32,585 nt of DNA from NCBI GenBank assembly GCA_903958395.1, contig CAJBSZ010000111.1:1-32585 (forward strand), in the 5' to 3' direction. Of this stretch, positions 285 through 32,585 are shown in pieces. Position numbers and translations under genes: made by a program. Within the stretch, counting starts at the first letter, position 1. Every line of letters begins with the position of its first letter. The notes beneath the pieces are model-generated. The model was not told where the DNA came from. It did no database searches and saw only the letters and a list, made by a program, of their open reading frames with translations. The stretch is from an uncultured bacterium (GTDB taxonomy: Bacteria; Verrucomicrobiota; Kiritimatiellia; CAIKKV01; CAITUY01).

Positions 285-577
285 TTACTGCTGCCCCTCA
301 GCCATAAACCTGACAGGCCCCAACAGGCCGGAGGGAAGAAGCGCCAGGCCGCCTCCATTCGCATTCGAAAGCGTGACGCGCTGAGCGGCCGGAAGCTTGG
401 AGTCGCCCAGCACCCGGTTGTTCCAGAGATTAACCACCGCGATCTCCATCTCATTTCCCTTCTCCTTCAAAACCCCCGAAGGAATCGCCACCCGCCACGG
501 CGCCGTCCACACCACGCCGAGCTCCCTGCCGTTCAACCTGACCTCGGCGAGATCCTTCACACACCGAGATCGAGATA
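285..577 (-). pseudogene. GH106-like glycosidase, C-terminal remnant
   Basis: The 91-residue reading frame matches the last part of the GH106-like protein at the right end of the window: DLAEVRLNGRELGVVW here against NLAEVKLNGRDLGVLW there, followed by the same NLW..NR pattern and a shared GL(L/I)GPVR ending. Such a galactose-binding-like beta-sandwich closes many large glycosidases. The homology extends upstream to a YLDLG motif (577), but a one-base loss near 558-564 shifts the frame between YLDLG and VKDLAEV. The catalytic part is absent. The piece is joined directly to a HzsA-like gene remnant. It is non-functional debris from a gene fusion or deletion. Confidence 0.75.
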
Positions 578-582
578 CATTT

Positions 583-27518: not shown

Positions 27519-27643
27519 AGATAACCCTGCGCCAGGCAATCGGAGAACGACGCCAACACCTGCCCCAAGTCAATGAGCACCCGGTGTGCGGCCTCGACCT
27601 GTCGTCCACTGTAATCTTCACGCTGGCGCGGTTCGTGATTCAT
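27515..27643 (-). pseudogene. AbiEii-type nucleotidyltransferase, N-terminal remnant
   Basis: A 42-codon frame whose residues 15-37 (RQVEAAHRVLIDLGQVLASF then SDCL) match the opening of a known group of nucleotidyltransferase toxin-like proteins, normally followed by a VGGW motif. Here the sequence diverges after SDCLA and stops, so the catalytic part is lost. The ATG overlaps the preceding stop as TTATGA, the usual AbiEi/AbiEii coupling. It abuts and overlaps by four bases the end of the mutarotase-like gene on the opposite strand. Confidence 0.6.
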
Positions 27644-27855
27644 AACTTTAAACCCTCGGCTTTCCATGCAGGTTTCAAACGCTGTTCGAGCAATGCCTCC
27701 GCCGCTTCCTGCCCCCGGCCGCCGCAATGCCACAAATCCACATAAGTCTGAACCGCGTTGGTGCAAGCCAAGCGGTGATCGGACACCATACCTCCATCAC
27801 CCAGATAGAACACGCCCTCGTCATTAGGAATCAACACCACCAGATTCTCACCTGA
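27640..27855 (-). pseudogene. AbiEi-type antitoxin, C-terminal remnant
   Basis: The frame beginning near SGENLVVLIPNDEGVFY and ending TYVDLWHCGGRGQEAAEALL...GLKL resembles the C-terminal end of AbiEi-type antitoxins (QLYLDL..GRG.EAAE pattern). The N-terminal winged-helix part is absent; in its place the upstream DNA is the glycosidase at 27848-29746. It is from a different subgroup than the intact AbiEi at 30729-31334. Together with the toxin fragment it marks a toxin-antitoxin pair destroyed by deletion. Confidence 0.6.
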
Positions 27856-29746
27856 AGTCCCAACCCCAACAACTATCCCATTGCCACGTTTCAAACACCT
27901 TGCGCACTGTGGCATGGGCAATCTTCTTATCAACCCCGTCGCCAGGCAACATACCGTAAATACCGATTTGCCCGGGATGTTCCCAGTTCATGGTGGTATA
28001 GGTATTGGTCATGCCCTCCTGCTGAAGATAAAGACCATCCTGGACCGGTAGCGGAGCCAATGCTTTCAGCACCTTGTCCCACTCAGGATTGCGCGCCAGT
28101 CCCTGCCGCTCGCGCCACTCCTGCGCCACTCTCAGCCCGTAGCGCCAGTAGCAGAGATCGAATGCAGGATTGGTTGTTCGTTGGGCATTAGTGTTTTCGG
28201 GCATGGTCTTAATTCCGGGTCCAAGCCGATACGTCCGGGTGGGCTCATCCCATGCAACAAAAGAAGCCATGAACTCAGCCGTATCCTCAACAATGCCGTT
28301 CCACCGCGCCAGCGTCTGCGAGTTCGGATGCCGCCGATAATCCAGGTCAGCAAAGAAAATGGCATGAGGCTGCTGCCATATGAGAAACTCCCCGACTCCG
28401 GTCGGCGATTCCCACCCGCCAGGCCCCGTCTGCTTCTGCCAGCGCGCGCCTCGATAGCCCTGCTTGCGAGCCGTCTCGCGCGCCGCAGACCGGAATCGTT
28501 CATAGAAACCCAGACTGCGGTCGAGCAACGGCCAGCGATCCCAGAGCGCATAGTGCGCCGCATGCCACCAGTACATCTCCAGATGAAACTTACCGTACCA
28601 ACCGTTCGATACCAGCCCCCCCTCCGCAGGCGGCCAGGATCCAGCCTCGTTGGCCCTCATCACATACTGGGAAAGGACGATTCGCCGTTCGAGTTCCTTC
28701 CACCGTGAATCCTTGCTGCCGGACAGATCTATCGCCGCACCCGATCGCCAGAACGACTCCCATTCCGCCGCCGAAGCGCTCCGGCAAGCTTCAAAACCGG
28801 GCAGCTCACCTGCAGACGGTGTTTGCGAAAACGAACACACCAACTCAAATACTGCTGTCTCGCTTTTTGCCACGGCAAGTTCATACACCTGCGGCGAAAC
28901 CTCTTTCAGCACCGCCTCCCCTTTCCACGACAGGCGCACTTCGTAAACATCCTCGTCCATCCTGCGGCGCAACACGGCACTGCGCCCCTGCCCCTGCTCG
29001 ACGACGGTCGTATGGGGCAACGCAGGATCGTAAAAACTGGCCCACTGACCCCTGTTCACTTTTTCGCGAGCGACACAATACGGAAACTTCAGCGTCACAC
29101 TCATGCGCCCCGATCGTACCAGGTCCGACTCGACACGCACAGCCACGGCATCCAGTTTCGGATGAACGCACGTCTGCACTTTCACCGGCACGCTCCCCAG
29201 CGCATATTCGCTGGTCAGCAACCCCGTCCAAAGATCCAACCGCTGTTTGCGACTGGCCGGCGCCAGTTCGTCCTGCTTCGCGACAGCCCCATCGGCTTTT
29301 CGGAACTCGAATCCCAGCACGCCGAGATTCATCCGGTGTGGATTTGTCGCCATCCACCAGTGCAACGGCACCGTATCGTTTCCCACCTTGACCGTAGCGG
29401 GCACGTCGAGCTTGGTGGCGATCCCATTGGACAAGATCGTGGCCTCCCATTTCGGACTACAGGCATGCAGGTTGTGATGCTTCCCGTCCGGCAGCGGCGG
29501 CGTATGCCAGCCCCAGTGCGCGAATATTCCCGGCTGGTTGAAAGACTGCAGTCCGGTAAAATCCGCGTTGAACGCAAACTCCCCGTTCCCCACCATCATC
29601 AGGTCCTGAGCACTGCCCTCAATCGCATGCCGCGCCACCAAGGCCCGCCGGTCAATGGGTTCCGGCTGCGAACTCCCCCCGGCAACGGCGGACTCGCCAA
29701 AACTCCATGCCGCACAAAGACAAATCATAACGGCTTGTTTATTCAT
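27848..29746 (-). CDS. Exported six-hairpin glycosidase-like protein, 3'-truncated
   Basis: A 632-residue protein with a signal peptide (MNKQAVMICLCAAWSFGESAVAG). IDRRALVARH, VGNGEFAFNADFTGLQSF and the HLEMYWWHAAHYALW segment fit exported (alpha/alpha)6-toroid glycosidases of the GH65/GH95-like group. The family continues past QWDSCWGWDF with a long C-terminal part of the toroid; here a TGA follows one codon later and the DNA switches to an AbiEi remnant. The protein therefore lacks the end of its barrel and is probably inactive. The start is chosen for the signal peptide and a GAGGG site eight bases upstream; the 64 codons before it overlap repeat debris. A possible promoter is TTGCGT/TATAGT at 29838-29867, weak. 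Confidence 0.7.
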   Translation of the reverse strand: MNKQAVMICLCAAWSFGESAVAGGSSQPEPIDRRALVARHAIEGSAQDLMMVGNGEFAFNADFTGLQSFNQPGIFAHWGWHTPPLPDGKHHNLHACSPKWEATILSNGIATKLDVPATVKVGNDTVPLHWWMATNPHRMNLGVLGFEFRKADGAVAKQDELAPASRKQRLDLWTGLLTSEYALGSVPVKVQTCVHPKLDAVAVRVESDLVRSGRMSVTLKFPYCVAREKVNRGQWASFYDPALPHTTVVEQGQGRSAVLRRRMDEDVYEVRLSWKGEAVLKEVSPQVYELAVAKSETAVFELVCSFSQTPSAGELPGFEACRSASAAEWESFWRSGAAIDLSGSKDSRWKELERRIVLSQYVMRANEAGSWPPAEGGLVSNGWYGKFHLEMYWWHAAHYALWDRWPLLDRSLGFYERFRSAARETARKQGYRGARWQKQTGPGGWESPTGVGEFLIWQQPHAIFFADLDYRRHPNSQTLARWNGIVEDTAEFMASFVAWDEPTRTYRLGPGIKTMPENTNAQRTTNPAFDLCYWRYGLRVAQEWRERQGLARNPEWDKVLKALAPLPVQDGLYLQQEGMTNTYTTMNWEHPGQIGIYGMLPGDGVDKKIAHATVRKVFETWQWDSCWGWDFR

Positions 29747-29774
29747 CAACACGTCCCTCTTTCTGAACCGATCA

Positions 29775-29828
29775 AACCGGTTCGATAAGACCCGCCCCCA
29801 AGAGCGGCGCATCTTTTCTAAGTCGTGA
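29775..29828 (-). repeat. GH106 3'-end fragment, imperfect direct repeat
   Basis: This stretch matches 31454-31518, the end of the GH106-like gene, in the same orientation, with about six mismatches and an 11-bp gap (positions 31498-31508 are missing here). It is non-coding here. The two copies flank the intact AbiE gene pair. Confidence 0.7.
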
Positions 29829-29911
29829 TACACATGAACTATATTCCGATAGATGTCGAACACGCAACCCCACTTAGGATGGAATGCCAGAATGACAAAA
29901 CTCCCGTCTCT

Positions 29912-29933
29912 GAACTTCGAAATTCTGAAGTTC
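29912..29933. repeat. Small hairpin in the gap after AbiEii
   Basis: GAACTTC (29912-29918) and GAAGTTC (29927-29933) form a 7-bp stem with an 8-base loop, with further TTCGA copies alongside. There is no T-run, so it is a short palindromic repeat rather than a clear terminator. A second imperfect stem lies at 29979-29995. The rest of 29747-29998 holds no gene. Confidence 0.4.
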
Positions 29934-29998
29934 GACATTCGACAATCTGCTGTTTCTCCTGCTGCCGCTTAGGTCTCTGGCCGTTCTTAACGACCAAC

Positions 29999-30742
29999 TT
30001 AGGGTCTTGGGTCAATTAATCTGTCGCATAGACTGGAAATACTGATTCTGAGTTTCATCGCCAGCCCTGCGAGCTCTTCAGGGGCAAGGATTTCCCTGAG
30101 TTCCTTCTCAAGTTTGGCCTGATTCAATTCCGTCACTTCATGTTTCATATCCGAAACCAGTTCAGACAGAGACATGCGACGTTTCCGACCACCATGGGGG
30201 CCTCGCCGCTCAACGGATTCCAGTCGCCGCATGAGAACATGAAAATCAGGCTGGACTGCCATGACCGTAAAAAGGAAATAGGCATCGTATAAGTCCCTAA
30301 GCAGACGCCGCTCATTCCAGGCAGCTAATTTATGCGCCAGCGAGGATTCATAACTCATAACCCGGATGATTCGGCCCTGAAGTCTATGTTCATGAGCAAG
30401 ACGAATGGTGCTCAATTCTGTTGTGGAACAGTTCTCCGCTACCTGCACCTCCACCTGCACTCGGGCACCCGCGCCTACAACCTGGCACCGCAAACACTTT
30501 GAGTTCAGCGAATGCGTCACCGTCACATCATCTAACGCCTGCAATGCCTTGACCACCTCAGGCGCAATCTCCTTCTTTGAAGAATGCGGCACAAAGACAT
30601 AGTCCAAATCATTGGTGAATCGCGGACAATCAAGCAGCCGCAGAACCATGCCTCCTTTCAGGATGGCGCGCGGACCAAATATTTCGGCAAAATGGTTCAT
30701 GATCCGAACCATCAATCCTTCAAGTGCATCATGGCTTGACAT
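29999..30742 (-). CDS. AbiEii-type nucleotidyltransferase toxin
   Basis: A 247-residue protein of the DUF1814/AbiEii group. The nucleotidyltransferase core is visible as LKGGMVLRLLDCPRFTNDLDYVF (about residues 29-51), containing the GG and the DxD-type NDLDY motif; a later SYESSLAHKLAAWNERRLLRDLYDAYFL segment contains the conserved Lys and Asp of the family (K..A...R...RDL.D). AbiEii toxins are GTP-binding nucleotidyltransferases whose activity stops growth and can limit phage. The ATG overlaps the antitoxin stop by 14 bp; an upstream in-frame TTG is less likely. It is flanked by GH106-derived repeats, suggesting insertion into a glycosidase cluster. Confidence 0.8.
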   Translation of the reverse strand: MSSHDALEGLMVRIMNHFAEIFGPRAILKGGMVLRLLDCPRFTNDLDYVFVPHSSKKEIAPEVVKALQALDDVTVTHSLNSKCLRCQVVGAGARVQVEVQVAENCSTTELSTIRLAHEHRLQGRIIRVMSYESSLAHKLAAWNERRLLRDLYDAYFLFTVMAVQPDFHVLMRRLESVERRGPHGGRKRRMSLSELVSDMKHEVTELNQAKLEKELREILAPEELAGLAMKLRISISSLCDRLIDPRP

Positions 30743-31334
30743 TGAGACAATTCTCCACAAAACGGACAAATTTCGGATTGCGATAGTGTTTCAGATACTT
30801 GTTGATCCTCTCTTTGTCCAACCTGCCGCAATCTATGTCGCCAAACACATCAAACGGGAACCGGTGGCCTTTCTGATAGAAATACAACGTATCAATGTAC
30901 GCCTTCTCTGCGTCAGCCAGGCGAATACCCGATTTAAACTCAATGCCGAACATCAGATCCGGATTAATCCCTAAATGAATAACAGCCCCCATCCCGTTCC
31001 CATAATGCCTGCACCGTCCGACCTTCACCCCAGTGACCGTGTGCGCAGGAATTACGCCTATCAGCAGATGACGACTCAATACAGTGCCGAAGCTAATGTA
31101 AGATTCCGGATTTATTCGGCAGGATACCGCCTCCAAATTGAAGTTTTCAGTAACATAAATAGATTTGCAGAACCGACGCAAAACCCCGTTCGCCTGGAGA
31201 TTCCGGATACACCGAAACAATTCCACCTCGCTGGCGGGCGCAATTAGGTTCCGAAGATCCGACACAGTAAAAACACCCTGCATCTCTGCGGCGTGACGCT
31301 CCAGCCTTTGATAATCGGCAAACACTCTTTTCAT
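30729..31334 (-). CDS. AbiEi-type antitoxin / autoregulator
   Basis: A 201-residue protein beginning MKRVFADYQRLERHAAEMQG with a winged-helix DNA-binding N-terminus (VFTVSDLRNLIAP, ELFRCIRNLQANGVLRRF) followed by the AbiEi-type C-terminal domain (LSRHLLIGVIPAHTVTG, FGIEFKSGIRLADAEKAYIDTLYF). AbiEi antitoxins neutralise AbiEii and repress their own operon by binding inverted repeats, and matching repeats are visible at 31337-31372. The chosen ATG is only about 4 nt from the predicted transcription start, so the message may be leaderless; no ribosome-binding site is seen. The longer frame start at 31373 would lie inside the operator and is rejected. Confidence 0.8.
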   Translation of the reverse strand: MKRVFADYQRLERHAAEMQGVFTVSDLRNLIAPASEVELFRCIRNLQANGVLRRFCKSIYVTENFNLEAVSCRINPESYISFGTVLSRHLLIGVIPAHTVTGVKVGRCRHYGNGMGAVIHLGINPDLMFGIEFKSGIRLADAEKAYIDTLYFYQKGHRFPFDVFGDIDCGRLDKERINKYLKHYRNPKFVRFVENCLNVKP

Positions 31335-31336
31335 AA

Positions 31337-31373
31337 TGACAGATACTATACAGATATAGACATTATCTGTCAC
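31337..31373 (-). promoter_or_regulatory. AbiE promoter and operator
   Basis: On the minus strand -35 GTGACA (31368-31373) and -10 TATAGT (31345-31350) have an exact 17-bp spacer. Overlaid on them is a perfect 9-bp inverted repeat, TGACAGATA (31337-31345) and TATCTGTCA (31364-31372). A further ACAGATA (31350-31356) repeats ACAGATA (31339-31345) at 11 bp, one helical turn. Binding by the antitoxin would block the promoter. The rest of 31374-31420 shows nothing. Confidence 0.7.
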
Positions 31374-31420
31374 TATGAAATCTCAAGAAAACTCTCGTCT
31401 GGCATAACATTCCCACAGCG

Positions 31421-32585
31421 TTACCTGTCATATGGGTTTCCTCGCATCAATCGAACCGGCCCGATAAGTCCCGACTCCAACAGCGGCGCATCTTTTCGAT
31501 AAGGGTTATAAGTCGTGACTGCAACCCGGTTTGTTGCCGGCAGACCCGCGTCACCAATCAGCCGGTTGGGCCAGAGATTGGTCACCTTGACTTCCAACGT
31601 ATTCGTCCCGGGTTTCACATAATCGGTAACATCCACCCGGAATGGCGGTTTCCAAAGCACACCCAAATCCCTTCCATTCAATTTCACTTCAGCCAGATTC
31701 TTGACACGGCCGAGATCAAGGTAGAGGCGTGAAACGTGAGATGTGAGACGTGAGACGTCGGCATCAAATACCTTGTTATAGACCGCCGTTCCCGAGAAAT
31801 ACCTGATCCCCTCCTCCGGCCGCGCCGTCCAATCGCACAACGTCTCGAACTCCACGGCATGGGCTGGCCCTCCCCAGCGGGGATCGAACCGCACAGTCCA
31901 CGGACCGGCAAGTTCAAGGACCGTCGCCCCAGGGAGCATCTCCGAGTTTTGGCATCTCGTTGACACGCAAGGTGTAGGACAGGCTTCCCCGGCCACTGCC
32001 GGGGAGCCTGTGTCTGCTTCGCCGCAAACACCCTTCCCGCAAGCTCCCTCCTTACGTCGGGAAGCTTGCCCTACAAAACCCGGGAATGCGCTCGTCGTCC
32101 CCTCCACAACCGTATCCGCGGCCGGAAGCTCCACGGGCTCCCACGGACACAATAGATCCCGGTAGCGGCGGCCATTGACCCTATACTCCACATGCAGATA
32201 ACATGCGGCAGAAAGTTTATCAGCGCCTAGGTCGCGCACAGACAATTTTAGACCAGATGCCGTTGCCCGTGCCCGGGCAAACTCCGTGATATCCTTCATG
32301 GGATCCGCAGCCTCCACTCCGGCCACAGGCCGCCACACGGCTTTCTCGATCCTGAAATCACAATCAGGCGCCACGGCATTCTTCACAGGATCGAGCCGAG
32401 CCGCCTTTCCTGCATTCACGACCGGACGCCGGAACACGACAAACACCGAATCCGCCGGCCCGAACGGTATAGACACAACAGTCCGCCCATCCTTCTCCTG
32501 ACTCCAAACCAATGCATCCTCAATCCGCCCGGTTTCCGGGTACCACAACTCGGGGATTCTCCCGCCGACCCGGAAAATACAGTCC
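31421..32585 (-). CDS. GH106-like glycosidase, C-terminal part (runs off right edge)
   Basis: The frame is open to the window's right end, giving the last 387 residues. CIFRVGGRIPELWYPETGRI resembles the region after the catalytic domain of GH106-type alpha-L-rhamnosidase-like proteins (C.FRV.G..PELW.P.TG), followed by a galactose-binding-like sandwich ending GLIGPVRLMRG. Two insertions distort the linker: a 101-bp palindromic element at 31974-32074 (in frame, encoding a Cys-rich stretch) and a run of 7-bp repeats at 31728-31755 (encoding VSRLTSHVSR). Catalytic residues lie outside the window. It is the first identifiable gene upstream of the AbiE pair, on the same strand, 86 bp apart. Confidence 0.75.
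   Translation of the reverse strand, partial: DCIFRVGGRIPELWYPETGRIEDALVWSQEKDGRTVVSIPFGPADSVFVVFRRPVVNAGKAARLDPVKNAVAPDCDFRIEKAVWRPVAGVEAADPMKDITEFARARATASGLKLSVRDLGADKLSAACYLHVEYRVNGRRYRDLLCPWEPVELPAADTVVEGTTSAFPGFVGQASRRKEGACGKGVCGEADTGSPAVAGEACPTPCVSTRCQNSEMLPGATVLELAGPWTVRFDPRWGGPAHAVEFETLCDWTARPEEGIRYFSGTAVYNKVFDADVSRLTSHVSRLYLDLGRVKNLAEVKLNGRDLGVLWKPPFRVDVTDYVKPGTNTLEVKVTNLWPNRLIGDAGLPATNRVAVTTYNPYRKDAPLLESGLIGPVRLMRGNPYDR
31728..31755 (-). repeat. Heptanucleotide tandem repeat within GH106-like gene
   Basis: Four copies of YGTGARA (CGTGAAA, CGTGAGA, TGTGAGA, CGTGAGA) in a row on the plus strand. They encode a VSRLTSHVSR loop before the C-terminal sandwich. Being a multiple of 7, any gain or loss of one copy would shift the frame, so it is a possible on/off site. 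Confidence 0.6.
31974..32074. repeat. REP/MITE-like palindromic element inside GH106-like gene
   Basis: The ends are inverted repeats: GTAGGACAGGCTTCCC at the left and the complement of GTAGGGCAAGCTTCCC at the right, matching 14 of 16. An internal stem, CCCCGGC with GCCGGGG and a 4-base loop, lies near the left arm. It interrupts the coding frame without stopping it. No transposase is in the window. Mobility would have to come from elsewhere in the genome. Confidence 0.65.

Follow-up and report, generated by a model that had tools for sequence, protein, structure and literature searches.

An AbiE toxin-antitoxin pair between a GH106-like gene and a decayed copy of a GH106-like 3' end

Introduction

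AbiE operons encode type IV toxin-antitoxin systems in which the antitoxin AbiEi binds inverted repeats, leading to autoregulation (PMC3985639, PMC7319586). Among the routes by which incoming DNA can be joined to a resident gene, homology-facilitated illegitimate recombination has been described for E. coli and for naturally competent bacteria (PMC3240628), and the same mechanism has been proposed for modules that displace old 3' ends downstream in the T6SS clusters of Vibrio (PMC5361080). Here, we describe an AbiE pair lying between a GH106-like gene and a second, decayed copy of a GH106-like 3' end in a contig of 32,585 nucleotides from an uncultured bacterium of the class Kiritimatiellia (hereafter the window), and we weigh the ways in which this arrangement could have arisen.

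Results

A direct repeat of GH106 coding sequence

Positions 29771-29828 and 31450-31518 of the window align in the same orientation, with 51 of the 58 aligned bases identical (88%) and one 11-bp gap (gapped alignment; Table 1). The ungapped core of this repeat, 48 nt at 85% identity (29771-29818 against 31450-31497), was found independently by an ungapped search. Within the aligned copies are identical blocks of 10 bp and 16 bp, the former at the outer edge. The same-orientation repeat of about 88% identity with an 11-bp gap reported in an earlier note on this DNA is thus real, and its boundaries had been placed correctly to within 4 bp. Aligned locally, the two copies score 36; in 300 dinucleotide-preserving shuffles the mean score was 13.6 and the highest 20.8 (Gumbel p ~1e-9), which rules out chance similarity. 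The earlier note had also pointed to other inserts in the genome as places where the 54-65 bp repeat might recur; a genome-wide search found no copy beside another insert and no third close copy. As the repeat is GH106 coding sequence without a third close copy, a MITE or other repeat element is likewise ruled out.

Table 1 Features of the window discussed in the text
Feature	Position	Strand	Basis or remark
Second GH106 3' stub, C-terminal ~90 codons, without AbiE	285..581	-	sequence comparison
Part of a further AbiE-like pair, 323 bp, with the 3' end of the antitoxin gene and the 5' end of the toxin gene	27534..27856	-	96% identical to C134:8956-9278
Six-hairpin glycosidase-like gene, ends early at residue 632	27848..29746	-	homologues continue ~75-90 residues more
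Repeat copy 2, decayed GH106-like 3' stub, 58 bp	29771..29828	-	alignment to copy 1
Segment between the repeat copies	29829..31449	.	GC 48.4%
AbiEii nucleotidyltransferase toxin, 247 aa	29999..30742	-	Pfam AbiEii 3.8e-16; PADLOC
AbiEi antitoxin, 201 aa	30729..31334	-	PADLOC AbiEi 3.5e-31
Inverted repeat, 17-bp arms, 18-bp spacer, spanning the AbiEi start codon	31329..31380	.	94% complementary
GH106-like alpha-L-rhamnosidase gene, 3' part	31421..32584	-	NCBIfam rhamnoside_JR; AlphaRhamBT4145 partial match; Glyco_hydro_2_N2
Repeat copy 1, codes for the conserved motif at the C-terminus of the GH106-like protein	31450..31518	-	alignments

Copy 1 belongs to a gene whose assignment as GH106-like rests on the C-terminal jelly-roll domain of rhamnosidase type (rhamnoside_JR, E=9.5e-48, 161 bits against a cut-off of 50), the catalytic part lying beyond the contig end at 32585. 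The protein has an intact C-terminus (...DAPLLESGLIGPVRLMRGNPYDR*, stop codon 31421-31423), and the tail encoded by copy 1 reads ...TTYNPYRKDAPLLESGLIGPVR. This tail carries SGLLGPV, a form of the SGLxGPV motif conserved in the other GH106 3' ends of this genome. Because copy 1 lies inside the GH106-like ORF, 9-10 codons before its end, the earlier description of the repeat as a gene end is correct.

The genome holds about 20 GH106 3' ends, including two tandem pairs 3.3-3.4 kb apart on contigs C95 and C477. Among the ~19 other ends examined, none scored above 24 with copy 1 or above 16 with copy 2, whereas the two copies reach 36 when aligned to one another. The two copies are thus a specific pair, related beyond what the family motif would give, and these scores rule out a conserved GH106 C-terminal motif in an unrelated paralogue. 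In one relative (G032), head-to-tail GH106 genes have 3' ends that are 72-90% identical over 106-150 bp.

An intact AbiE pair in AT-rich DNA

AbiEi and AbiEii, adjacent on the same strand with the antitoxin first and a 14-bp overlap, are the only genes between the copies; no integrase, transposase or excision gene is present in the 1.6-kb insert. The antitoxin scores below cut-off with NCBIfam TAA_AbiEi (7.6e-10), as it does with the Pfam AbiEi models, and its homologues in relatives are full-length at about 200 aa. Using published definitions of the toxin motifs (PMC3985639), we found motifs I-IV in the translation of AbiEii and in its alignment with the homologue from the relative G045: LKGG-x13-DLD (hGG-x13-DhD), KLAAWNER and RDLYD. 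Both genes are complete, so that the pair is intact, as had been claimed earlier. The further claim that the pair lies exactly between the copies is right as to the placement of both genes, which are nevertheless set back from the copies by ~170 bp of non-coding DNA on one side and ~115 bp on the other.

The inverted repeat over the AbiEi start codon is probably the AbiEi operator, by analogy with described AbiE operons. The predicted pair most probably acts as a typical type IV toxin-antitoxin module, an activity that we infer: AbiEi would repress its own promoter at the inverted repeat and would counteract the nucleotidyltransferase AbiEii.

GC content is 48.4% between the copies and 59% in each of the two neighbouring genes. 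On the contig, no window of 1621 bp is lower in GC, the minimum being reached at 29800, and the AT-rich stretch coincides with the span from copy to copy. The AbiE pair is thus compositionally foreign from one copy to the other.

Copy 2 is a decayed stub close to the next gene

Copy 2 is non-coding: it is frameshifted by the 11-bp deletion, has Glu in place of the invariant Gly of GPV (EPV) and then runs into an early TGA. It breaks off abruptly at 29828/29829, and no GH106 homology was found at 29829-30000, although a large deletion would remove such homology too. At its other end, copy 2 is separated by 26 bp from the start codon (ATG) of the six-hairpin glycosidase-like gene, which is operon spacing. 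Elsewhere in this genome, the gap from a GH106 gene to the following start tends to be a few tens of bases, so the stub resembles the end of the original upstream gene or of a former one. The six-hairpin frame is itself open for 64 codons upstream of the likely ATG (29747-29938), running through the stub in another frame, probably by chance.

Other scars on the contig

The locus is broken more than once. In place of the 3' end of the six-hairpin gene stands the fragment of a different AbiE-like pair (27534-27856). The pair on contig C134 to which it is 96% identical is apparently complete and matches AbiEii and, below cut-off, AbiEi_2. The truncated gene and the apparently illegitimately joined fragment make it more plausible that illegitimate joining has been at work in this row of genes. 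Contig C134, 10 kb of the same genome (L152 4688-10005), carries an IS200-like (Y1) transposase gene with an AbiE-like pair on either side. Near the start of the window, the second GH106 stub is apparently frameshifted at its beginning and lies directly behind a gene with an HZS_alpha-type domain.

Gene order and AbiE loci in relatives

A same-strand GH106 gene followed by the six-hairpin gene was found in none of 146 relatives, none of 346 genomes of the class and nowhere in one scan of 84,980 species genomes, some loci offering only 1.5 kb of flank. This gene-order search did return six-hairpin homologues, none of them behind a same-strand GH106 gene. In a locus from the same genus (L117), the GH106 and six-hairpin genes are convergent, and in two others (L130 and L133), the GH106 gene is downstream. 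Neither an empty site nor a donor locus was found among the relatives searched.

A duplicated gene end is absent from all 15 other AbiE loci in relatives of the class. The only clean and unique flanking repeat among them is that of G045, a 137-bp element with inverted ends rather than a gene end. There, a direct repeat with ends GGACAGTCA...TGACTGTCC brackets the AbiE pair (L100 936-1094 and 2763-2913, 137 bp at 96%), and these are the sole two copies in that genome. Repeat-flanked AbiE was rejected as a general rule: the other two high scorers, L098 and L104, consist of intergenic DNA with internal repeats, which gives matches in inverted orientation as well.

Discussion

The duplication is real, and ordinary recombination or gene decay seems a better account of it than a new mobile element. 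We tentatively favour a reading in which the AbiE pair came in beside a related GH106 3' end, with one junction formed by homology and the other by illegitimate joining. We infer both the order of events and the recombination route. Foreign DNA carrying a related GH106 3' end and the AbiE operon would have recombined by homology with the resident GH106-like gene, and its other side would have become attached, by illegitimate joining, within the final 58 bp of that gene. The resident gene would thereby have taken the incoming 3' end and stayed complete, with AbiE landing behind it, while its own 3' end was displaced downstream and decayed, and the next gene would have kept its start site. One insertion event explains the complete gene, the diverged displaced end, the abrupt inner edge and the foreign composition together. 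Several observations speak for it: the score of the copies against each other (36) is above that with any other GH106 3' end examined in this genome, the edge of the stub is abrupt, the AT-rich span fits the copies, the stub lies 26 bp before an ATG, and a further toxin-antitoxin fragment, at 27534-27856, has apparently been joined illegitimately in the same row of genes. Moreover, a copy of 88% identity at a locus lacking an integrase is more easily read as one of two diverged alleles than as a recent target-site duplication. Against it stand the missing empty site or donor locus among relatives, and the fact that none of the 15 other AbiE loci shows a duplicated gene end. This reading also has to assume a homologous stretch.

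A tandem duplication, which needs no incoming GH106 DNA, is also a realistic possibility. Two tandem GH106 genes would have stood here; AbiE would have entered between them and the second gene would have been deleted save for its last 58 bp, so that the repeat would be the remnant of a paralogue. The head-to-tail genes of G032 with their similar 3' ends, the ~20 GH106 3' ends of this genome with the pairs on C95 and C477, and the AbiE-free stub at 285-581 of the same contig are all in keeping with this. Three events would nonetheless be needed (duplication, AbiE insertion and a deletion sparing only 58 bp), the genome's other GH106 3' ends are unlike the stub (scores of 16 or less), and around the stub no GH106 homology was found beyond its 58 bp. 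Because a tandem origin requires three events and no more GH106 sequence is seen near the stub, we place insertion in one event slightly ahead.

We consider it unlikely that the GH106 3' end was duplicated locally, by template switching or otherwise, and that AbiE entered between the copies only afterwards and independently. This history would suit a short, clean-edged stub on a contig bearing other scars, but calls for two independent events at one place, and the 12% divergence and the 11-bp deletion mean that the duplication must be old.

Still more doubtful is that a mobile element bearing AbiE integrated site-specifically at the 3' end of the gene, with a recombinase supplied in trans and att-like copies restoring the gene. 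The geometry (an intact gene with its 3' end, cargo and a displaced 3' end), the identical 10-bp block at the outer edge and the AT-rich insert are in keeping with this, yet the 1.6-kb insert lacks an integrase or excision gene, no further copy of the repeat adjoins an insert anywhere in the genome, and the repeat is absent at the 15 AbiE loci of relatives. The earlier note had read the locus as resembling integration at a gene's 3' end. That reading is supported in part, by the foreign composition, the non-coding partial end and the operon spacing; the missing integrase, the lack of the repeat beside other inserts and the 15 AbiE loci leave the site-specific route unsupported, and the ordinary tandem GH106 duplication that the note named as refuting its reading is, as set out above, a realistic possibility. 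We give very little credence to the broader idea that a small integrase-less AbiE cassette moves between the 3' ends of GH106 genes in the class, each time giving the gene a new C-terminal end.

The locus is a clear small example of a toxin-antitoxin pair settling behind a metabolic gene without breaking it, and the ~20 GH106 3' ends of the genome offer homology for such insertion events. Nothing in it is categorically new: AbiE was known before, as were GH106 arrays and homologous insertion from one side.

Compared with the AbiE type IV systems (AbiEi/AbiEii, DUF1814), the pair is alike in antitoxin-toxin order, motifs I-IV, the inverted repeat at the AbiEi start and protein sizes, while no AbiE protein found in this bacterial class is more than 46% (AbiEi) or 44% (AbiEii) identical to its counterpart here. 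The neighbouring gene resembles the GH106/alpha-L-rhamnosidase family in its C-terminal jelly-roll domain and SGLLGPV tail, with the 3' part alone on the contig. Integrative elements that use gene 3' ends likewise keep the gene complete and leave a partial copy of its end on the far side; here, in contrast, there is no integrase, the copies are imperfect and the cargo is only 1.6 kb. The Vibrio T6SS effector-immunity modules and Rhs tips share with this locus a new toxin-type module with the old 3' end of a gene left downstream, whereas the shared gene here is a glycosidase and the case is that of a single event at a single locus.
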